Notes: generated from the sequence alone by a model not told the origin. A stretch of DNA of 48,592 bases from Comamonadaceae bacterium (GCA_947448375.1 CANFMY010000002.1:1-48592); one strand, 5' to 3'; shown: positions 617 to 13,598, counted from the stretch's first letter. Translations and numbers: made by a program.

Positions 617-1687
<1,071 letters not shown>

Positions 1688-1739
1688 GAGAAGTCCTTTT
1701 GATTCAACGGGTTGAGGGAGGATCCGGGCTCGTCTGATA

Positions 1740-1755
1740 CTGTCTTGATCAACAG
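1740..1755. promoter_or_regulatory. LexA/SOS box upstream of recA
   Basis: CTGT-CTTGATCA-ACAG exactly matches CTGT-N8-ACAG, 53 bp upstream of the recA start. Confidence 0.88.
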
Positions 1756-1838
1756 CCTGGATGCTTGAACAGTACTTTAGCGGAAGGCATAGGTGTTCGT
1801 AAATACTATTTTTGGTCAGTTTGCCTTACCATTTGGCC

Positions 1839-2330
1839 ATGCGTCACACACCTCCTCCCCTGGTGGCCTGGGATGGCCGGCAAGCCCACCTGGGTCGCCT
1901 CATGGGCGTTGCCTTGCGTCGATTCGATGAGCGGGTGTTGACCCTGATGGCGCGGCATGTCGATGTGCCCCTGGCGCTGTCCAATCTGGCCGCCCGCGCG
2001 CAGGTGAGCGCAGCGCACATCCACATCACCCGGCATTTGCCGCTGGAGGGTGGGCGGCTGGGCGAGTTGGCGCGCAGCGCGGGCATGAGCAAACAGGCGA
2101 TGGGCGACCTGGTGGATCAGTGCGAAGCGTGGGGCTTGGTCAGCCGGTCTGCGGATGCGCGTGATGCGCGCGCACGCCGTATCGAATTCACCGAGACAGG
2201 CCGCGCCTGGGTGCGCGCATTTCAAATGGCCGTGGGGCAGGCCCAGCGTGAATTCGAGCAGGAAGTGGGCGCCGAGGTGGCGGCGGTGATCTGGCTGGGC
2301 CTGGAGGCGTATGCGGGCGACTATCGGTGA
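1839..2330 (+). CDS. MarR-family transcriptional regulator
   Basis: Winged-helix pattern (LGELARSAGMSKQAMGDLVDQCEAWGLVSRSADARDARARRIEFTETG). The internal ATG at 1839 is preferred over the ORF-track start at 1812. Confidence 0.8.
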   Translation: MRHTPPPLVAWDGRQAHLGRLMGVALRRFDERVLTLMARHVDVPLALSNLAARAQVSAAHIHITRHLPLEGGRLGELARSAGMSKQAMGDLVDQCEAWGLVSRSADARDARARRIEFTETGRAWVRAFQMAVGQAQREFEQEVGAEVAAVIWLGLEAYAGDYR

Positions 2331-2398
2331 AGTCTCGGGTTGTCACGCCCAGGAGCCGGATGCCTAGAATGGTGAACAAAGCACAATCAGGAGACACC

Positions 2399-3073
2399 AT
2401 GCGGATCCTCATAGCCGAAGACGATCAGGTACTGGCCGATGGCCTGCTGCGCAGTCTGCGAGCCTCGGGGGCGGCGGTCGACCATGTCTCCAGCGGCACC
2501 GAGGCCGATGCGGCCCTGATGACCACCGACGAATTCGATTTGCTGATCCTGGACCTGGGCCTGCCCAAGATGCACGGCCTTGACGTGCTCAAGCGAATGC
2601 GCGCCCGCGGCAGCGCCGTGCCCGTCATCATCCTCACCGCTGCAGACAGCGTGGAGGAACGGGTCAAGGGATTGGACTATGGCGCGGACGACTACATGGC
2701 CAAGCCCTTTTCCCTGCAGGAGCTCGAAGCCCGCGTGCGGGCACTCACGCGCCGCGGCATGGGCGGCACCACCTCCGCGATCAAGCACGGACCCTTGGTC
2801 TACGACCAGGCGGGACGTGTGGCCACCATCGACGGCAAGATGGTCGAACTCTCCGCGCGCGAGCTCGGGTTGCTGGAAGTGCTGCTGCAGCGCGCGGGCC
2901 GTTTGGTGAGCAAGGATCAGCTGGTCGAGCGCTTGTGCGAGTGGGGCGAAGAGGTGAGCAACAACGCCATCGAGGTGTACATCCACCGCCTGCGCAAGAA
3001 GATCGAGAAAGGCCCCATCCGCATTGCCACTGTGCGTGGGCTGGGCTACTGCCTCGAAAAAATTCCCGGATGA
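2399..3073 (+). CDS. OmpR/TctD-like response regulator
   Basis: MRILIAEDDQVLADGLLRSL receiver, LLILDLGLPKMHGLDVL phospho-site region, C-terminal winged helix (VYIHRLRKKI...IRTVRGLGYCLE-like). ATG at 2399 follows AGGAGA. Confidence 0.93.
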   Translation: MRILIAEDDQVLADGLLRSLRASGAAVDHVSSGTEADAALMTTDEFDLLILDLGLPKMHGLDVLKRMRARGSAVPVIILTAADSVEERVKGLDYGADDYMAKPFSLQELEARVRALTRRGMGGTTSAIKHGPLVYDQAGRVATIDGKMVELSARELGLLEVLLQRAGRLVSKDQLVERLCEWGEEVSNNAIEVYIHRLRKKIEKGPIRIATVRGLGYCLEKIPG

Positions 3074-3074
3074 A

Positions 3075-4538
3075 GTGAAAATTTTTCAGCGCGAACAGCG
3101 CTCCCTGTTTGGTGAGATCCTGGACTGGATGCTCACGCCCTTGCTGCTGCTGTGGCCGATCAGCCTGGCCCTGACCTGGTTGGTGGCCCAGGGCATCGCG
3201 GGCCGCCCGTTTGACCGTGGTCTGGAATACAACGTGCAGGTCCTGGCGCAACTCGTGCGCTACAACGGCCAGCAGGTGCAGTTCAATCTGCCCCAGCCCG
3301 CGCGTGAAATATTGCGAGCCGATGACGCTGACCTGATCTACTACCAGATCCTGGGGCCCAGCGGTGACTTCATCAGTGGTGAGCGCGATTTCCCGTTGCC
3401 GGCGGAAGAGGAAAAACCGCTCTCGGGCGAAGTGCGGCTGCGCGACGACGCGATGCGCGGTGCCAATGTGCGCGTGGCCTATGTCTGGGTGCGCGTGGAT
3501 TTGCCGCAGGCGCGCTACGTGCTGGTGCAGGTGGCCGAGACGCTGGAGAAGCGCTCGGTGCTGGCCACGGAAATTATCAAGGGGGTGATGCTGCCGCAGT
3601 TCGTGATCCTGCCCCTGGCGGTGCTGCTGGTGTGGCTGGCGCTGGCGCGCGGCATACAGCCGCTCAATCAGCTCGAAGAACGGATTCGCCAGCGCAAACC
3701 CGATGACCTGAGCCCGCTGGACGATCGTGTGGTGCCGCTGGAGGTGGCGCCCTTGGTCTCGTCCATCAACGACTTGTTGATGCGACTGAAAGATTCGATC
3801 GCCACACAAAAACGTTTTCTGGCCGATGCCGCGCACCAGCTCAAGACCCCGCTGGCTGGCTTGCGCATGCAAGCCGATCTGGCCCAGCGGGAAGGGGCAA
3901 GCGCCCAGGAACTCAAGCAGTCGCTGCAGCACATCGGACGCGCGAGCATGCGCGCCACGCACACGGTCAACCAGCTGCTGTCGCTGGCGCGTGCCGAAAG
4001 CGGCGGTGCCAACCTGACTCGCCAACCCTGCAACCTGGTGACCCTGGTGACCGAGGTGATCCAGGACTCCCTGCCGCGGGCACTGGACCGGCACATCGAC
4101 CTCGGCTATGACGGTGTCGCCTCGGACAACCCCGGTGTGTGGGTGTCGGGCAACCCTACCTTGCTGAAGGAGCTGATTCGCAACCTGATCGACAACGCGA
4201 TCAACTACTCTCCGTCCAGCGCGGATCACCCCGGTGTGGTGACGACCCGTGTGCTGGCGGACCCGTTCAGCCGGGTGGCGGTGTTTCAGGTGGAAGACAC
4301 CGGCCCGGGCATTGCACCGTCCGAGCGTGAACTGGTGTTCCAGCCGTTTTACCGGGCGTTGGGCTCGGACACTGACGGGTCGGGGCTGGGCTTGCCCATC
4401 GTGATGGAGATTGCCAACCGGCACGAAGCCACCGTCACGGTGGACGAAGCACACCACGGCCGGCAGCCGCCGGGCGCATGCTTCACGGTGCGCTTTACCC
4501 GAACCCTGTCCGAGCGTGAACTCACATCGGGCCGTTAG
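3075..4538 (+). CDS. TctE-like sensor histidine kinase
   Basis: Two TM segments, sensor N-domain, AAHQLKTPLAGLRMQADLA H-box, NLIDNAINYSP N-box, DTGPGIAP and GSGLGLPIV. In-frame GTG at 3075 preferred over the upstream ORF-track start. Confidence 0.92.
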   Translation: MKIFQREQRSLFGEILDWMLTPLLLLWPISLALTWLVAQGIAGRPFDRGLEYNVQVLAQLVRYNGQQVQFNLPQPAREILRADDADLIYYQILGPSGDFISGERDFPLPAEEEKPLSGEVRLRDDAMRGANVRVAYVWVRVDLPQARYVLVQVAETLEKRSVLATEIIKGVMLPQFVILPLAVLLVWLALARGIQPLNQLEERIRQRKPDDLSPLDDRVVPLEVAPLVSSINDLLMRLKDSIATQKRFLADAAHQLKTPLAGLRMQADLAQREGASAQELKQSLQHIGRASMRATHTVNQLLSLARAESGGANLTRQPCNLVTLVTEVIQDSLPRALDRHIDLGYDGVASDNPGVWVSGNPTLLKELIRNLIDNAINYSPSSADHPGVVTTRVLADPFSRVAVFQVEDTGPGIAPSERELVFQPFYRALGSDTDGSGLGLPIVMEIANRHEATVTVDEAHHGRQPPGACFTVRFTRTLSERELTSGR

Positions 4539-5219: not shown

Positions 5220-6311
5220 TCATGGCGCGGCAGGGTTGTCCTCGCGGTTGAACGTCACCACGTGGTCCACCTGGGCGCGAATGCCGATCCATTCGCCCAC
5301 CGTGTGGTCGTGATGGCTGGGCACCAGGGCCAACACGGTTTCTCCCGTGGCCAACCGAAGCGTATAGAGGAATTCCGAGCCGCGGAAGGACTTGCGCAGT
5401 ATCTCGGCTTTGACCGGCGCGTCGTCATCGTGCACGATGTCATCGGCCCGCAACAGCACGTCGCACTGGCCAGCCGCAAATGCGCCGGGCATCGGGCACT
5501 CGGCAATATCTGTCAGGTTCCCCAGCGGGGTCTGCACCACCACCTGGGTACCCTCCAGGTGCAGCGTGGCGGGGGTGAACACACCATGACCGATGAACTC
5601 CGCCACAAAGCGAGAAGCGGGTCGGTGATACAGCGAGTAAGCGTTGTCCCACTGGTGCAACTGCCCGTGCGACATCACGCCAATGACATCCCCGATGGCG
5701 AAGGCCTCGAGCTGATCGTGCGTGACAAACAGGGCGGTGGTTTGCGCTTCTTTGAGAATCTGGCGCACCTCATGCGCCAGGCGTTCGCGCAAATCAACGT
5801 CCAGGTTGGAAAAGGGTTCATCCAGCAACAGCAGTTGCGGCTGCGGCGCCAATGCCCGTGCCAGGGCCACGCGTTGCTGTTGACCCCCAGACAGCTCGTG
5901 GGGACGACGGCGCGCGCTGCCGGTCAGCCCGACCAGGCGCAACACGGCCTGCACACGTTGCTCGCGTGCCTCTCGCGTCCAGTGGGCCAGGCCGAAACCG
6001 ATGTTGTCGCCCACGTCCAGATGGGGAAACAGGGCGTAATCCTGAAACACCATGCCGATGCGACGTTCTTCGGCGGGCACGTGGCGCTCGCCTTCGCTCA
6101 CCACCTGGCCATTGAGCCGAATGCGTCCACCGGTCACCGGCTCCAGGCCGGCCACGGCACGCAGCAAGGTCGTCTTGCCGCAGCCCGAGGGTCCGATGAG
6201 CACGCCCATCTCGCCGGCGCGCAGGCCCAGGGTCACCTGATCGACCGCGGGCTGGGGTCGGCCTGGATACTGGACCTGCAACTGCGAGACATCAAGAAAC
6301 ATGCTGGGCAT
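5220..6311 (-). CDS. fbpC: Ferric-iron-type ABC transporter ATP-binding protein
   Basis: GPSGCGKTTLLRAVAGLEPVTGG Walker A, LSGGQQQRVALARALAPQPQLLLLDEPFSNLD, C-terminal TOBE-like region. Start may be Met at 6302 (MFLDVSQ). Confidence 0.88.
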   Translation of the reverse strand: MPSMFLDVSQLQVQYPGRPQPAVDQVTLGLRAGEMGVLIGPSGCGKTTLLRAVAGLEPVTGGRIRLNGQVVSEGERHVPAEERRIGMVFQDYALFPHLDVGDNIGFGLAHWTREAREQRVQAVLRLVGLTGSARRRPHELSGGQQQRVALARALAPQPQLLLLDEPFSNLDVDLRERLAHEVRQILKEAQTTALFVTHDQLEAFAIGDVIGVMSHGQLHQWDNAYSLYHRPASRFVAEFIGHGVFTPATLHLEGTQVVVQTPLGNLTDIAECPMPGAFAAGQCDVLLRADDIVHDDDAPVKAEILRKSFRGSEFLYTLRLATGETVLALVPSHHDHTVGEWIGIRAQVDHVVTFNREDNPAAP

Positions 6312-6372
6312 TGTAGATAGCCGCGTTGCGGCATAGGCTGCCTACAATTGAAATCCGTTCAAAGCAGGTTCG

Positions 6373-8034
6373 ATGCCCGAGCCTGCTCGGACGGACAACC
6401 TATCGTCTACGTCGGCTCGAATGCGTTTGTCACGAATCTTTCTTCTGTTGGTCTTGGCCAGTTTGCTGTTGCCGGTGCTGACGGTGTTCGGCGCCTGGTT
6501 GCAAGCGGACGCACGATCCGCCGAGGTCTTGCGGGGCATGGCGGAAACGGTCCTGCCCGACTACGCGGCCAACAGTCTGCTCCTGTGCGCCTGGGTACTG
6601 GTGGGCGTGGTCTGCCTGGGCACTGCGTCGGCGGTGGCGGTCACCCTGTTCGAATTTCGCGGTCGACGCATGCTGGAGTGGGCCTTGTTGCTGCCCCTGG
6701 CCATGCCCGCCTATGTGGTGGCTTACGCCTACACCGACTTTCTGCAGTACAGCGGCCCCGCGCAGACCTGGCTGCGTCAGGGGTGGGGCTTGCAAGGGCG
6801 TGTGTTGCCGGAAATTCGCAGCCTGTGGGGAGCCGCCTGTGTGCTGGCGCTCACCCTCTATCCCTACGTTTACTTGTTGGCCCGTGGCGCCCTGACCGAA
6901 CGGGCCACCCACCTGATGGAAGCCGCGCGCTTGCTGGGGGCGCCGCTGTCACGTCGTATCCGGGCGGTGGCCTTGCCGTTGGCCAGGCCGGCCATCGCGG
7001 CCGGTGCGGCCCTGGCCATGATGGAAACGCTGGCCGACTACGGGGTGTCGAGCTACTTTGGGATTCAGACCTTGACTACCGGTATTTACAAGGCCTGGCT
7101 GGTGATGGAGGACCGCACCGCTGCGGCCCAGTTGTCCACGTTGTTGCTGGGGGTGGTGCTGGGGGTGCTGCTGGTCGAGCGTCGTGCCCAGTCCCGCTTG
7201 CGCTTTGCCGCCAGCCGCGTGGCAGAGAGATCGCGTGAGGCCCAGCCCGTGCGTCTGCGGGGGCGCGCGCAGTGGTTGGCGCAGGGGGTGTGTCTGCTCC
7301 CGGTGCTGTTGGGTTTTGTGGTGCCAGTCATCTTGTTGCTGCAAGCGTTGTGGACAACAGGAGACGCCATCGACTGGCCCTGGGGTCGTTTCCTTGAGTG
7401 GACCTGGAACAGTTTCCGCCTGGGCCTGCTGACGGCGGTGCTGGCTGCGGCCGCCGCCAGTTGGCTGGCCTTTGAGGCCCGGCGCCAGCCGCGCGGGCCG
7501 GTGACCTGGGCGGTGCAAGGGGTGGGGTTGGGCTATGCCGTGCCCGGTGCGGTGATCGTGGTGGGCCTGTTGCTGCCGGTGGGCTGGGTGCAGGGCCGCT
7601 GGCCGCAGTGGGGCGTGGGCGCGTGGGTGACCGCAACGCTGCTGGGTTTGTTGTGGGCCTATCTGGTGCGATTTGTCGCCGTGGCCCTGCAATCGATGCA
7701 AAGCGGTTACGCCCGCATTCCGACCAGCCTGGACGAAAGCGCCCGCATGCTGGGCACCTCCTGGGCCCGCCTGTGGCGAGCGGTGCACTGGCCCTTGATG
7801 CGGCGTCCGGTGGCCGCCGCCGTGTTGCTGGTGCTGGTCGATGTCATGAAGGAACTGCCGGCCACCCTGGTGCTGCGACCCTTCAACACCGACACCCTGG
7901 CCGTGATGGCGTATCAGCTCGCCCGCGATGAGCGCCTGGGCGAGGCCGCCTTGCCCTCGCTGGCGCTGGTGCTGGTGGGGCTCATTCCGGTGATGCTGCT
8001 CAGCCGGGCCTTGCGCCGACCCGCCACGGACTGA
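6373..8034 (+). CDS. fbpB: Ferric-iron-type ABC transporter permease (two fused permease domains)
   Basis: 553 aa, many TM segments, two BPD-type EAA loops (EAARLLGAPLSRRIRAVALPLARPAI; ESARMLGTSWARLWRAVHWPLMRRPV). Start could be 6421. Confidence 0.88.
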   Translation: MPEPARTDNLSSTSARMRLSRIFLLLVLASLLLPVLTVFGAWLQADARSAEVLRGMAETVLPDYAANSLLLCAWVLVGVVCLGTASAVAVTLFEFRGRRMLEWALLLPLAMPAYVVAYAYTDFLQYSGPAQTWLRQGWGLQGRVLPEIRSLWGAACVLALTLYPYVYLLARGALTERATHLMEAARLLGAPLSRRIRAVALPLARPAIAAGAALAMMETLADYGVSSYFGIQTLTTGIYKAWLVMEDRTAAAQLSTLLLGVVLGVLLVERRAQSRLRFAASRVAERSREAQPVRLRGRAQWLAQGVCLLPVLLGFVVPVILLLQALWTTGDAIDWPWGRFLEWTWNSFRLGLLTAVLAAAAASWLAFEARRQPRGPVTWAVQGVGLGYAVPGAVIVVGLLLPVGWVQGRWPQWGVGAWVTATLLGLLWAYLVRFVAVALQSMQSGYARIPTSLDESARMLGTSWARLWRAVHWPLMRRPVAAAVLLVLVDVMKELPATLVLRPFNTDTLAVMAYQLARDERLGEAALPSLALVLVGLIPVMLLSRALRRPATD

Positions 8035-8054
8035 AGTCCCTGTTGGCTCCATGC

Positions 8055-8076
8055 TCTCAATTGAGAATGGTTCTCA
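8055..8076. promoter_or_regulatory. Fur-like overlapping palindromic operator
   Basis: TCTCAATTGAGAATGGTTCTCA: a perfect 12-bp palindrome TCTCAATTGAGA overlapping the inverted repeat TGAGAA-TGG-TTCTCA, upstream of the iron-binding protein gene. Confidence 0.7.
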
Positions 8077-8136
8077 TTTGATGTAGGATGTCCTCTGTTC
8101 GGCCCTGTCGGCCGATGCAGACCTGAAGCCATCCCC

Positions 8137-9210
8137 ATGCGCCCCCCTCTCTCGATGATTTCTCACCTCCGAGCCCTGCTCCTGGTCGCCTGCGCCGTGG
8201 CGCTGACCCCGGCGGTCCAAGCGCAGTCGCAGGACAAGGTGCTCAACCTCTACTCCGCACGGCACTACCCCACCGACGAAGCCTTGTACAGCCAGTTCAC
8301 CCAGGCCACGGGCATTCGCATCAACCGGGTCGATGCCGACGATGCCGGCATTCTGTCGCGTCTCAAAGCCGAGGGCACGGCTTCGCCGGCGGATGTCATT
8401 TTGCTGGTGGATGCAGCCCGTCTCTGGCGTGCCGAGGTCGATGGCCTGTTTCTGCCCGTGAAGTCCAAGGTGCTGGAAACGTCCGTGCCGGCGACCATGC
8501 GTGCCAAGCCAACAGAGGACGGTGGCTCAGCCTGGTTCGGGTTGTCGACGCGCGCGCGCGTCATCGTCTTTGATCCGCGGCGCCACCCACGCGAAGCACT
8601 CGACACCTACGAGAAACTGGCCAACCCCAGCTTCAAGGGTCAGTTGTGCATCCGCTCAGGCTCGCACCCTTACAACCTGAGCCTCTTTGGTGCCATGACC
8701 GAGCACCTGGGGCCGACCCAGACCGAGCGCTGGCTCAAAGGGTTGGTGGACAACCTGGCCCGTCCCCCGCGGGGCGGGGACACCGACCAGATCAAGGGCG
8801 TGGCGTCCGGCGAATGCGCCGTGGCGTTGACCAACACGTATTACCTGGCGCGCATCATGCGGTCCAACAAACCGGACGATCAGGCGCTCATGGCCAACCT
8901 GGGGGTGGTATTCCCCAATCAGGCCAGCTGGGGCACCCATGTGAACATTGCCGGTGGCGGTGTCGCGCGCCACGCCAAGCATCCGGAGAACGCCGTGAAA
9001 TTTTTGGAGTATCTGGTCAGCCCCGCGGCCCAGCAGCACTTCGCCAATGGCAACAACGAGTGGCCGGTGGTGCCCGGCTTGAAGTTTGACAACCCAGCCT
9101 TGCAGGCCATGACCGGGGGCGGGTTCAAAAGCGAACTGGTGCCGATCAGCGCCGTGGGCATGAACCAATTCAAGGTGCAGCAGATGCTGGACCGTGTGGG
9201 AATGAAGTAA
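8137..9210 (+). CDS. fbpA: Fe(3+) ABC transporter substrate-binding protein
   Basis: Signal peptide (LLLVACAVALTPAVQAQ), LNLYSARHYPTDEALYSQFTQATGIRINRVDADD...ILSRLKAEG, typical of FbpA/FutA proteins. Confidence 0.92.
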   Translation: MRPPLSMISHLRALLLVACAVALTPAVQAQSQDKVLNLYSARHYPTDEALYSQFTQATGIRINRVDADDAGILSRLKAEGTASPADVILLVDAARLWRAEVDGLFLPVKSKVLETSVPATMRAKPTEDGGSAWFGLSTRARVIVFDPRRHPREALDTYEKLANPSFKGQLCIRSGSHPYNLSLFGAMTEHLGPTQTERWLKGLVDNLARPPRGGDTDQIKGVASGECAVALTNTYYLARIMRSNKPDDQALMANLGVVFPNQASWGTHVNIAGGGVARHAKHPENAVKFLEYLVSPAAQQHFANGNNEWPVVPGLKFDNPALQAMTGGGFKSELVPISAVGMNQFKVQQMLDRVGMK

Positions 9211-9214
9211 GCGA

Positions 9215-10048
9215 CTAACGCGGTCGGATGCTGATCTCGTTGCTGTGGATGCATTCGCGACCGCTGTCGGTGTCCACCCGCAGTTGCCCCTGCGCATCGA
9301 CCCCACGCGCCCACCCCTCCCGTCCATCGGAGAGGCGGATGGCCTGGTCGAGCAACCAGTCCCGGCGGGCGAAGCGTGACACCAACGGCGCGAACCCTTC
9401 CCGGTTGAAGCCCAGCACCGTGCGCAGCAAATCGGGCATGAGTTCGCGCAAGAGGTCGCTCGCGTTCAGGCCGGGTTGCACCTCGCTCACGCCCAGCGGG
9501 GGGATGCTGCTGTCCACGCCCTGCGGCGTGCGCACATTGAGGCCAATGCCGATCACCGCGTACCGCTCGGTCCGGGCTGCGCGGGCGTCGGCGACCGTGG
9601 CCGTTTCAATCAAAATGCCGCCCAGCTTGTGGGGGCCACCCCCCGTGTCGCACCACAGGTCATTGGGCCATTTCAGGCCCAGCACAGCTCGGTCCGGATC
9701 CGGGTGTGGGGTGCGCGGTGGCTGTGCCTGCAGCAGCTGGGTCAGAGATTCGGCCAGGGACACCCCGACCGCCAACGACAAGCCCGACCAGTCAGGCGGG
9801 TTCAGCATCAACCCCAGGGAGAACGTCAGCGACTCACCGGAGCGGCTGGTCCAGCTTCGACCCAAGCGGCCACGGCCGGCCGTTTGCATCTCGGCGATGA
9901 GCACCACCGGGTCGGTCTGGCCTTGACGGGCCCGCCGCATCAGTTCGGTGTTGGTGGAGTCTAGGCTGGGCACCAGCTCCAGGCTCAGGCCCGGACACAG
10001 CGGGGACAACGCCAGCCACAGGTCCTCCAGAGGCCAGGGCGTTGCCAT
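9215..10048 (-). CDS. birA: Biotin--[acetyl-CoA-carboxylase] ligase
   Basis: LDSTNTELMRRARQG, TAGRGRLGRSWTSRSGESLTFSL, LKWPNDLW, GGILIE, VIGIGLNV: biotin protein ligase catalytic motifs. Confidence 0.95.
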   Translation of the reverse strand: MATPWPLEDLWLALSPLCPGLSLELVPSLDSTNTELMRRARQGQTDPVVLIAEMQTAGRGRLGRSWTSRSGESLTFSLGLMLNPPDWSGLSLAVGVSLAESLTQLLQAQPPRTPHPDPDRAVLGLKWPNDLWCDTGGGPHKLGGILIETATVADARAARTERYAVIGIGLNVRTPQGVDSSIPPLGVSEVQPGLNASDLLRELMPDLLRTVLGFNREGFAPLVSRFARRDWLLDQAIRLSDGREGWARGVDAQGQLRVDTDSGRECIHSNEISIRPR

Positions 10049-10057
10049 GGTGACGGA

Positions 10058-10570
10058 TCAGCGATCGCCTTTGGGGGCCAGCAGGGTGCCGCGGCACTTT
10101 TTGGCGCCACACCAGCAGGGGTACTCGGCCTTGAGCTTGCGGGTGTAGGGCGCGTCAATGATCAGACCGTAGTCGTAATTCAACTCCTCGCCCGCCTTGA
10201 TCTTGCGCAGCGACTTGATGAATACCCGGCCATCGTCCTCTTCGGCCTCGCAATTGGGTTTGCAGGAATGGTTGATCCAGCGTGACGCATTGCCGCCGTA
10301 CAAGGCGTCAATGACCCGTTTGTTGGTCAGGTGAAAGTAGAACGTGTGGTTGGGATCCTGGGGGTCATGGGGATGACGCCGCAAGGCTTCCTTCCACTTG
10401 ATGATCTCTCCCACGTATTCGATGATCACCTCTCCCTTGGGGATGTCTTGCAAGGCAAACACGCCCTTGCCATGCACGCCGGAACGACGGGTCTGGATTC
10501 GACGACCGGAGGGGGAAGAGGAGGGCTTGGTTGACACGGCCTGATTTTTTGTTAAGTTGAATACGTACAT
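10058..10570 (-). CDS. SET-domain protein (putative protein-lysine N-methyltransferase) with post-SET Cys motif
   Basis: RRSGVHGKGVFALQDIPKGEVIIEYVGE, INHSCKPNCEAEEDDGRVFIKSLRKIKAGEELNYDYG, and terminal CWCGAKKCRGTLL (CxCx4C). Met at 10570 chosen; the track's longer ORF runs into the topB start region. Confidence 0.92.
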   Translation of the reverse strand: MYVFNLTKNQAVSTKPSSSPSGRRIQTRRSGVHGKGVFALQDIPKGEVIIEYVGEIIKWKEALRRHPHDPQDPNHTFYFHLTNKRVIDALYGGNASRWINHSCKPNCEAEEDDGRVFIKSLRKIKAGEELNYDYGLIIDAPYTRKLKAEYPCWCGAKKCRGTLLAPKGDR

Positions 10571-10599
10571 GCGTGCGCACACACGTGCGCGTGCGCGCG
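10561..10599. other. 39-bp perfect alternating purine-pyrimidine tract (Z-DNA-prone)
   Basis: ATACGTACATGCGTGCGCACACACGTGCGCGTGCGCGCG alternates R/Y at every position. Confidence 0.85.
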
Positions 10600-10664
10600 A
10601 GGGCTGATTGTAGAAGCACAATAGCCCGGCCCCCAGAATTGGAAGCACAAGGACCCTGTCATTC

Positions 10665-13598
10665 ATGAGCAAAACCCTGGTCATCGCCGAAAAGCCGTCA
10701 GTGGCACAGGACATCGTGCGGGCGCTCACGCCCGTCGCCGGCAAGTTTGAAAAGCACGACGACCACTTTGAAAACGACCGCTACGTGGTCACCAGCGCGG
10801 TGGGCCACCTGGTCGAGATCCAGGCGCCGGAGGAATTCGATGTCAAACGCGGCAAATGGTCGTTCGCCCACTTGCCGGTCATCCCGCCCTACTTCGACCT
10901 CAAGCCCGTCGACAAAACCAAGACGCGGCTGAACGCGGTCATCAAGCAGGCCAAGCGCAAGGACGTGGAGACGCTCATCAACGCCTGTGACGCGGGCCGC
11001 GAGGGTGAGCTGATCTTCCGCCTGATCGAGCAATACGCCGGTGGCAAGAAACCCCTGGGCAAGCCGGTGCAGCGCCTGTGGCTGCAGTCCATGACGCCCC
11101 AGGCCATCCGCGACGGCTTTGATGTCCTGCGCTCCGAAAAGCAGATGCAGGGCCTGGCCGACGCCGCGCGCAGCCGCTCCGAGGCCGACTGGCTGGTGGG
11201 CATCAACGGCACCCGTGCCTTCACCGCCTTCAACTCGCGCGATGGCGGCTTCTTCCTCACCACCGTGGGGCGCGTGCAAACGCCCACGCTGAGCGTGGTG
11301 GTCGAGCGCGAAGAGCAAATCCGCAAGTTCATCAGCCGCGACTACTGGGAGGTCCACGCCAGCTTCCTGGTCGAGGCGGGCGAATATGCCGGCAAGTGGA
11401 TCAACCCCGCGCACAAGAAAGACGAGAACGACCCCGAGCGCAAGGCCGATCGCGTCTGGTCGGCGCAAGAGGCGCAGGCCATTGCCGACGCGGTGCGAGG
11501 CAAGGCCGCCACCGTCACCGAGGAAAGCAAGCCCACCACCCAGTCATCGGGCGGTCTCTTTGACCTCACCTCGCTGCAGCGTGAGGCCAACGGCCGTTTC
11601 GGCTACTCGGCCAAAACCACCCTCGCCCTGGCGCAGAGCCTGTACGAGCGCCACAAGGCCCTGACCTACCCCCGTACCGACTCGCGCCACCTGCCCGAGG
11701 ACTACCTGCCCACGGTGCGCCAGACCTTCGAGATGCTGGCCGACAGCGGCATGAAGCACCTGGCCCCCTTTGCCCTCACCGCCCTCAACAACGGCTACAT
11801 CAAGCCAAGCAAGCGCGTGTTCGACAACAGCAAGGTGAGTGACCACTTTGCCATCATCCCAACATTGCAGGCGCCCTCGGGTCTGTCAGAGGCTGAACAG
11901 AAACTGTACGACCTGGTGGTCAGGCGCTTCCTGGCGGTGTTCTTCCCGTCAGCCGAATTTCAGGTCACGACCCGCATTTCCCAGGTGGCGCACCAGGGCG
12001 TCAGCCACCACTTCAAGTCCGAGGGCAAGGTGATGGTCAAGCCCGGGTGGCTCGCCATCTACGGCAAGGAGGTCCAGACCGAGGATGACGGCAGTGGCAA
12101 GACGCTGGTGGCGGTCAAGCCCGGCGAGATGGCGCGCAACGAATCCGTCAACCCGCAGGCACTCAAAACCCGCCCGCCTGCCCGCTACACCGAAGCCACC
12201 CTGCTCGGGGCCATGGAAGGGGCGGGCAAGCTGGTCGAGGACGACGAGCTGCGCGAGGCCATGCAGGAAAAGGGGCTGGGCACGCCGGCCACACGAGCGG
12301 CCATCATCGAAGGCTTGATCAACGAAAAATACATGCTGCGCGATGGTCGCGACATGATCCCCACCGCCAAAGCCTTCCAGCTCATGACGCTGTTACGAGG
12401 CCTGGGTGTGGAAGAGCTCTCCTCGCCCAGCCTGACGGGCGAGTGGGAGCACAAGCTTTCGCAAATGGAACAAGGCCAGTTGAGCCGTGAAGCCTTCATG
12501 CGCGAAATCGCCGCGATGACCGAGCGCATTGTGAAGAAAGCCAAGGAGTACGACCGCGACACCGTGCCGGGTGACTACGTCACGCTCACGACCCCTTGCC
12601 CGACCTGCGGGGGGCAGGTGCGCGAGAACTATCGCCGCTTTGCCTGTACCGGCGCGGACGGCCAAGGCGAGGGCTGTGGCTTCTCGTTTGGCAAAACGCC
12701 AGGGGGCCGCACGTTCGAGTTGCACGAAGTGGAGTCCTTGCTGGCCAACAAGCAGGTGGGTCCGCTGGAGGGGTTTCGCTCCAAGGCCGGTTGGCCCTTC
12801 ACGGCCGAAATCGTGCTCAAGTTCAATGAGGAAGAGCGCAACTGGAAACTCGAATTCAACTTCGGCGACGACAAGTCGGATGAGGGCAGTGGAGAGCTGG
12901 TCGAGTTTGGTGAGAGCGCGTCCCTGGGCGCCTGCCCCAAATGCGGGGCTGCCGTGCGCGAGCATGGCAACAACTACGTCTGCGAAAAATCCGTGCCCAC
13001 GCACGCCCAGGCCACGCCCTCGTGCGACTTCAAGAGCGGCAAGATCATCCTGCAGCAGCCCGTCTCGATCGAGCAGGTGCAAAAGCTCCTGAGCACCGGC
13101 AAGACCGATCTGCTCGACAAGTTCATCTCGATGCGCACCCGTCGTCCGTTCAAGGCCTACCTCGCCTGGAATGCGGAGGCGGGCAAGGTGGCCTTCGAGT
13201 TCGAACCGCGCACCAGCAAGTACCCGCCACGTCAGCGCGCCGGGGCGGCCGCCGGCGCACCGAGTGCGCCGGCGGCCAAGGCCACGGCGAAGAAGGCGGG
13301 CAAAGCCGGTGCGAAGTCCGCTGCCAAGAAAACCGCCGCCGCCAAACCCCCCAAGGCACCCCGCAAGCCCGCCGCCGGCAAGGCGCCCAGCGCAGCCCTG
13401 GCCGCCGTGATTGGCCACGAGCCGGTGGCCCGTACCGAGGTGATCAAAAAGCTGTGGGAGTACATCCGCGCCAACGGGCTGCAGGATGCGTCCGACAAGC
13501 GCAAGATCAACGCGGACGACAAGTTGCGGCCGGTGTTCGGCAAGGATCAGGTCAACATGTTTGAGCTGGCGGGGTTGGTGGGGCAGCACCTCGGCTAA
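10665..13598 (+). CDS. topB: DNA topoisomerase III with C-terminal Lys/Ala-rich linker and SWIB domain
   Basis: MSKTLVIAEKPSVAQDIVRAL TOPRIM start, DAGREGELIFR, LTYPRTDSRHLPEDY catalytic Tyr region, two C-terminal Cys clusters (CPTCGGQVRENYRRFACTG; CPKCGAAVREHGNNYVC), AKATAKKAGKAGAKSAAKKTAAAKPPKAPRKPAAGK, then SWIB-like ARTEVIKKLWEYIRANGLQDASDKRKINADDKLRPVFGKDQVNMFELAGLVGQHL. Confidence 0.97.
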   Translation: MSKTLVIAEKPSVAQDIVRALTPVAGKFEKHDDHFENDRYVVTSAVGHLVEIQAPEEFDVKRGKWSFAHLPVIPPYFDLKPVDKTKTRLNAVIKQAKRKDVETLINACDAGREGELIFRLIEQYAGGKKPLGKPVQRLWLQSMTPQAIRDGFDVLRSEKQMQGLADAARSRSEADWLVGINGTRAFTAFNSRDGGFFLTTVGRVQTPTLSVVVEREEQIRKFISRDYWEVHASFLVEAGEYAGKWINPAHKKDENDPERKADRVWSAQEAQAIADAVRGKAATVTEESKPTTQSSGGLFDLTSLQREANGRFGYSAKTTLALAQSLYERHKALTYPRTDSRHLPEDYLPTVRQTFEMLADSGMKHLAPFALTALNNGYIKPSKRVFDNSKVSDHFAIIPTLQAPSGLSEAEQKLYDLVVRRFLAVFFPSAEFQVTTRISQVAHQGVSHHFKSEGKVMVKPGWLAIYGKEVQTEDDGSGKTLVAVKPGEMARNESVNPQALKTRPPARYTEATLLGAMEGAGKLVEDDELREAMQEKGLGTPATRAAIIEGLINEKYMLRDGRDMIPTAKAFQLMTLLRGLGVEELSSPSLTGEWEHKLSQMEQGQLSREAFMREIAAMTERIVKKAKEYDRDTVPGDYVTLTTPCPTCGGQVRENYRRFACTGADGQGEGCGFSFGKTPGGRTFELHEVESLLANKQVGPLEGFRSKAGWPFTAEIVLKFNEEERNWKLEFNFGDDKSDEGSGELVEFGESASLGACPKCGAAVREHGNNYVCEKSVPTHAQATPSCDFKSGKIILQQPVSIEQVQKLLSTGKTDLLDKFISMRTRRPFKAYLAWNAEAGKVAFEFEPRTSKYPPRQRAGAAAGAPSAPAAKATAKKAGKAGAKSAAKKTAAAKPPKAPRKPAAGKAPSAALAAVIGHEPVARTEVIKKLWEYIRANGLQDASDKRKINADDKLRPVFGKDQVNMFELAGLVGQHLG

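Follow-up and report, generated by a model that had tools for sequence, protein, structure and literature searches.

SET, SWIB and topoisomerase occur together in Chlamydiae, which contain the SET protein NUE/CT737, a topoisomerase I-SWIB fusion and a stand-alone SWIB protein; in the open-licence literature, we found the three together in this Waddlia study alone (PMC6426960). A chlamydial precedent had been invoked in the original prediction for the locus described here. The part of it that concerns a SET protein and a topoisomerase-SWIB fusion stands, whereas it is contested whether chlamydial SET acts on histone-like proteins: host histones are methylated by NUE and Hc1 and Hc2 are not, with conflicting reports for Hc1 (PMC6426960). 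Bacterial SET proteins have mostly been discussed as host effectors, and BtSET and LegAS4-RomA were studied for their effects on host chromatin (PMC3980110, PMC7819608).

In this study, we analyzed a stretch of 48,592 nucleotides from a Comamonadaceae bacterium (GCA_947448375.1 CANFMY010000002.1:1-48592; hereafter the window), in which a SET-domain gene lies beside topB, the gene for DNA topoisomerase III (Table 1). As in Chlamydiae, a single bacterial genome here encodes SET, a topoisomerase-SWIB fusion and a small SWIB protein. Unlike in Chlamydiae, the fusion involves topoisomerase III and not topoisomerase I, the window-type SET gene is physically paired with genes for TopB-SWIB, gyrB or SWIB-less TopB, and its carriers include many environmental bacteria, with no evidence of secretion. 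BtSET and LegAS4-RomA share the SET domain with the window protein, and SET proteins of large-genome Burkholderiales (family f31) are 66-67% identical to it, but the context in the window points to the topology of the bacterium's own chromosome. The nearest solved structures, by both sequence (3e-27) and fold (4e-13), are the SET domains of MLL/KMT2, including the post-SET Cys motif, although the window protein carries no other domains.

The promoters of gyrA, gyrB and topA are supercoiling-sensitive topoisomerase promoters. The topB gene of the window likewise encodes a topoisomerase and could have a supercoiling-responsive promoter, but the sensor proposed here is a dedicated alternating tract common to the promoters of topB and of a methyltransferase gene. 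This tract is the most surprising element of the locus. In the open-licence literature, we found no description of a SET-topB(III) pair or of a topoisomerase promoter with a conserved Z-type tract; searches on topoisomerase III-SWIB in bacteria, on bacterial SET with a topoisomerase and on Z-DNA at conserved bacterial promoters gave no account of the pair.

Table 1. Positions of genes, domains and sequence elements at the SET-topB locus of the window.
Feature	Position	Strand	Basis or remark
birA, biotin-protein ligase	9215..10048	-	Directly downstream of SET, same strand; neighbour conserved in family
SET-domain protein-lysine methyltransferase gene, probable CDS	10058..10537	-	GTG start 10537-10535; profile, structure and motif matches
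TTGACA, -35-like candidate for topB	10531..10536	+	16 bp before TAAGTT; window-specific, weak
Conserved box TGTTAAGTTGAAT, SET side of tract	10550..10562	+	Weak extended -10-like candidate for topB, or part of SET leader
Perfect alternating purine-pyrimidine tract, 39 bp, ATACGTACATGCGTGCGCACACACGTGCGCGTGCGCGCG, Z-DNA-type	10561..10599		Run scan, genome pattern search
ATTGTA (TACAAT on minus), conserved -10-like candidate for SET	10607..10612	-	Alignment of family regions
topB, DNA topoisomerase III, 977 aa	10665..13598	+	Full-length NCBIfam PRK14724 match
TopB Lys/Ala/Pro-rich linker, aa 856-907	13230..13385	+	Tail comparison
SWIB domain, TopB C-terminus, aa 908-976	13386..13592	+	Profile match

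Structure and conservation of the SET-topB gene pair

Profile matches confirmed that the SET gene and topB are arranged head-to-head on opposite strands. The SET domain is matched over its full length (PF00856, E=1.5e-26, 93.3 bits against a cut-off of 22.4). HGxG, NHSCxPN, YDY and the post-SET CxCG...C are all present and kept across relatives, and the window protein has its catalytic and post-SET motifs in intact form (NHSCxPNCEA, GEELNYDYG and CWCG...CRGTLL); judged by these motifs, the product is predicted to be a catalytically intact lysine methyltransferase. Comparison with a 95%-identical homolog (L092) gave dN 0.028 and dS 0.53 (dN/dS ~0.05), indicating that the gene is under purifying selection. 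The AlphaFold model of the protein is of moderate quality (mean pLDDT 75.5), with residues 1-21 disordered.

The SET gene had been placed at 10058-10570. Its strand and its end hold, but a start at ATG 10570 is doubtful. The 11 codons that would be added (MYVFNLTKNQA) overlap a conserved box, ATTCAANTTAACA, which is non-coding in relatives, and the ATG start used by these relatives aligns with the GTG listed in Table 1. Thus, the coding sequence probably begins at 10537 and encodes 159 aa.

TopB matches the topoisomerase III model PRK14724 with 1905.8 bits (cut-off 1088) and contains the active-site Tyr335 and the Toprim motif DAGREGE, whereas it reaches only 175 bits against PRK06319, the Chlamydia-type topoisomerase I-SWIB model (cut-off 868). 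The Lys/Ala/Pro-rich tail and the SWIB domain (E=1.3e-25, 89 bits) that had been read at its end are both there. In addition, the same genome encodes a stand-alone SWIB protein of 151 aa (L269:5279-5731, contig C81) with AKKAPAKK repeats and an H1/HC2-like Lys-repeat N-terminus, whose HC2 match is below the curated cut-off. From its sequence, it is likely a paralogue of the TopB tail.

Of the 201 genomes in the family of the window (f1), 189 contain SET and 200 contain SWIB, the SET-less genomes also keeping SWIB proteins. Named members matched by the SET query include Hylemonella, Ramlibacter, Curvibacter, Limnohabitans, Rhodoferax, Polaromonas, Hydrogenophaga and Caenimonas, and many of the named members are environmental bacteria. 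We then considered the 115 genomes, a subset of the family, in which SET and TopB were both among the matches listed. The two genes lie within 3 kb of each other in 112 of them, always in divergent orientation; the other three comprise a probable contig split, a pair separated by 8 kb and a pair that is unlinked. The adjacency on which the original prediction was built is therefore conserved in relatives.

The other neighbours differ in their conservation. SET and birA are adjacent in 45/46 cases and SET and topB in 42/44, while the position beyond topB is taken by varying genes (best cluster 19/66). In most close relatives, recA and a two-component pair of response regulator and sensor kinase (620-4535 in the window) are found near birA-SET-topB. 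An ABC transporter lies between the kinase pair and birA (5223-9210, with a permease at 6373-8034 and a solute-binding protein at 8137-9210) and was apparently inserted in the lineage of the window.

Alternating purine-pyrimidine tract between SET and topB

A search of the 3.0-Mb draft of the same genome with (RY)11 counted nine matches, which are overlapping registers of the 39-bp tract; nine is exactly the yield of one 39-bp run, and seven of its places were among the matches listed. The reversed control, (YR)11, was counted ten times, one more than the maximum that a 39-bp run gives in that register, so a second, pyrimidine-first run of ~22 bp may be present elsewhere in the draft. Among the matches listed, the longest was located in the SET-topB gap in 12 of 13 genomes.

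Within the family, 135 distinct topB upstream regions were compared with dinucleotide shuffles (40 rounds). Runs of at least 16 bp occur in 108 of these regions (shuffle mean 2.1, maximum 5) and runs of at least 24 bp in 70 (shuffle mean 0.05), while about a fifth of the family loci have no run of at least 16 bp. When 71 loci (1.2 Mb) were scanned, runs of at least 20 bp were observed upstream of topB in 42 and nowhere else. The YR steps of the family tracts are CG (51%), TG (28%), CA (14%) and TA (6%), i.e. ~94% CG/TG/CA. The tract, 39 bp in the window, is hence a long CG/TG/CA-rich alternating run beyond chance. All tract differences between the window and L092 keep the alternation while base identity drifts, and the family regions compared share no fixed motif within the tract. 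From these comparisons, constraint on the intergenic tract is evident.

Loci in which SET is absent or unlinked have runs of 6-19 bp (n=7) compared with a median of 25 bp in linked loci (n=128; p=0.0006, relatedness not corrected). Three of the seven have tracts of 17-19 bp. Thus, SET is not required for the tract, since SET-less genomes keep shorter versions of it. None of the other families examined has the tract ahead of topB, which implies that it did not belong to an ancestral SET-topB system.

The tract lies between candidate -10 boxes of SET and topB. On the SET side it is bordered by CTGTTAANTTGAAT, and on the topB side by ATTGTA, which is usually found 7-12 bp past the tract edge. All of these boxes are weak candidates for promoter elements: a sigma-70 consensus scan of the region found nothing, and the TTGACA that overlaps the probable SET start codon was not reported by it.

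A possible supercoiling-responsive divergent promoter

We tentatively favour the explanation that SET and topB form a conserved chromosome-topology gene pair whose facing promoters have a Z-DNA-prone tract in common, and rate its chance as somewhat short of even. The divergent adjacency has been kept in spite of the variable gene beyond topB, and SET has a gyrB context in two further families (f31 and f6; see below). A more specific proposal, which we consider somewhat doubtful, is that the tract, as the longest alternating run of the genome, acts as a supercoil sensor, flipping to Z-DNA with negative supercoiling and setting both outputs. A supercoiling-responsive promoter is suggested by the Z-type composition, by RNA folding results that argue against a specific hairpin and by a rough estimate of the B-Z transition from approximate dinucleotide energies (near sigma -0.04 for a 5-kb domain, and between about -0.04 and -0.06 according to the size of the domain).

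In such a mechanism, SET and topoisomerase III would be expressed from the facing promoters, and a rise in negative supercoiling, for example between the two divergently transcribed genes, would drive the tract into Z-form. The initially transcribed region of the divergent promoter would thereby flip with supercoiling; the Z-form tract would absorb superhelical strain and alter initiation at both start sites, and the output of TopB and SET would follow supercoiling. SET itself might methylate lysine-rich nucleoid or topology proteins, candidates being TopB, GyrB, HU and the stand-alone H1-like SWIB protein. Against this explanation stand the weak promoter boxes and the empty consensus scan, the family loci without a run of at least 16 bp, and the distribution of the tract, which is missing in other families and kept in shorter form without SET. 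The gene order may also have been inherited neutrally.

If true, the twist of the chromosome would be wired to a eukaryote-like protein-methylation enzyme. To our knowledge, well-supported natural regulatory roles of Z-DNA in bacteria are few, and a near-unique, family-conserved tract at a topoisomerase promoter makes this question directly testable. The locus also offers bacterial SET enzymes a likely native setting, namely the systems that handle the topology of the bacterial chromosome itself.

Other possible explanations

It is possible, though less likely than not, that SET acts on abundant H1-like or other nucleoid proteins, such as the stand-alone SWIB protein, and that its link to topB goes no further than co-regulation; this is compatible with the topology-pair explanation. 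The AKKAPAKK-repeat, HC2-like N-terminus of that protein makes it, on sequence grounds, at least as good a candidate substrate as TopB, SWIB is present in nearly all family genomes, and precedents from other microbes involve methylation of H1- or chromatin-like proteins (PMC3980110). On the other hand, SWIB proteins persist in SET-less genomes.

Another possibility, somewhat unlikely in our opinion, is neutral synteny: an ancestral SET gene may have resided in an origin-proximal gyrB-topB region, with the order simply inherited and no functional link. Adjacency alone is not a proof of function, since birA is an equally conserved neighbour, which weakens the argument from gene order by itself. 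The nearby retention of recA and of the two-component pair fits this possibility as well, as does the distance of 5-35 kb that separates SET from topB in several further families. However, the divergent pair has been kept although the gene past topB is scrambled, the intergenic tract is under constraint, and different topoisomerase genes (gyrB and topB) adjoin SET in different families.

The last point comes from the wider survey of the order, where SET was found in 40 of 150 genomes. In two other Burkholderiales families, SET directly follows gyrB. Small genomes of f31 (GC ~45%) have the order dnaA-dnaN-gyrB-SET, and f6 has the same order followed by convergent topB and dprA, so that SET also adjoins topB there. 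These placements suggest that SET tracks DNA-topology genes in both families. In the small f31 genomes, the start of SET and the stop of gyrB are only a few bp apart (L249:5116-5125, L337:6923-6930), and SET is therefore probably cotranscribed with dnaA-dnaN-gyrB. One f31 genome (L255) has a related kinase pair next to SET. A linkage of SET beyond the order was rejected: in the 17 genomes examined at class or phylum level, topB, gyrB, dnaA and birA were not found within ~7 kb of SET.

We consider it unlikely that the tract, rather than being Z-DNA, works as a hairpin in an RNA leader or is bound by a protein. RNA of this GC-rich alternating kind folds stably (mean MFE ~-17 kcal/mol), and the topB-sense strand contains more T than A, as would follow from a tolerance of G-U pairs. 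However, the tracts fold no more stably than permutations that retain the alternation (mean z -0.2 and -0.3), which favours selection on the alternation itself; a hairpin as the selected feature was rejected, there being no folding signal beyond alternation. In addition, perfect alternation over 24-56 bp is unnecessary for a hairpin, and a hairpin or binding site is poorly reconciled with the lack of a conserved motif within the tract.

The original prediction proposed that SET specifically methylates lysines in the C-terminal tail of TopB and thereby switches topoisomerase III. The conserved head-to-head pair accords with it, Lys-rich tails such as KAPRK or APAKKAAAKK are plausible SET substrates, and one genus that has lost SET also has a lysine-free TopB tail (L232, L237). 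Nevertheless, the comparison speaks against a dedicated switch on the tail or SWIB, and we regard it as improbable. SET remains upstream of a SWIB-less TopB in 28 family loci, where the tails have 9-55 residues, mostly <30. Conversely, TopB tails rich in Lys are present in SET-lacking families of the order as well as in most of the genomes that have no SET within the window's family, two of which even keep SWIB. In f6, the TopB beside SET has a Lys-poor, Arg-ended tail (e.g. RTRRRAS), and the small f31 genomes pair SET with gyrB and not topB. Moreover, birA, the equally conserved neighbour, has no evident link to chromatin. Neither the Lys tail nor SWIB was thus retained as the cause of the linkage. 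The prediction as a whole is partly supported: the pair is conserved, but the tail switch is not favoured.

Finally, a host-directed nucleomodulin is very improbable, for although SET proteins of Burkholderia and Legionella were reported to methylate host H3 (PMC3980110, PMC7819608) and the window protein weakly matches the LegAS4/AnkI effector model (NF043024, 45 bits against a cut-off of 550), SET is widespread in a family with many environmental members and is fixed beside replication and topology genes, with no secretion context seen.

The genome of the window also contains a second SET-domain gene (L268:7947-8480, minus strand, contig C8; Pfam SET 40.7 bits), which is distant from the first (35% identical) and lies in a different context.
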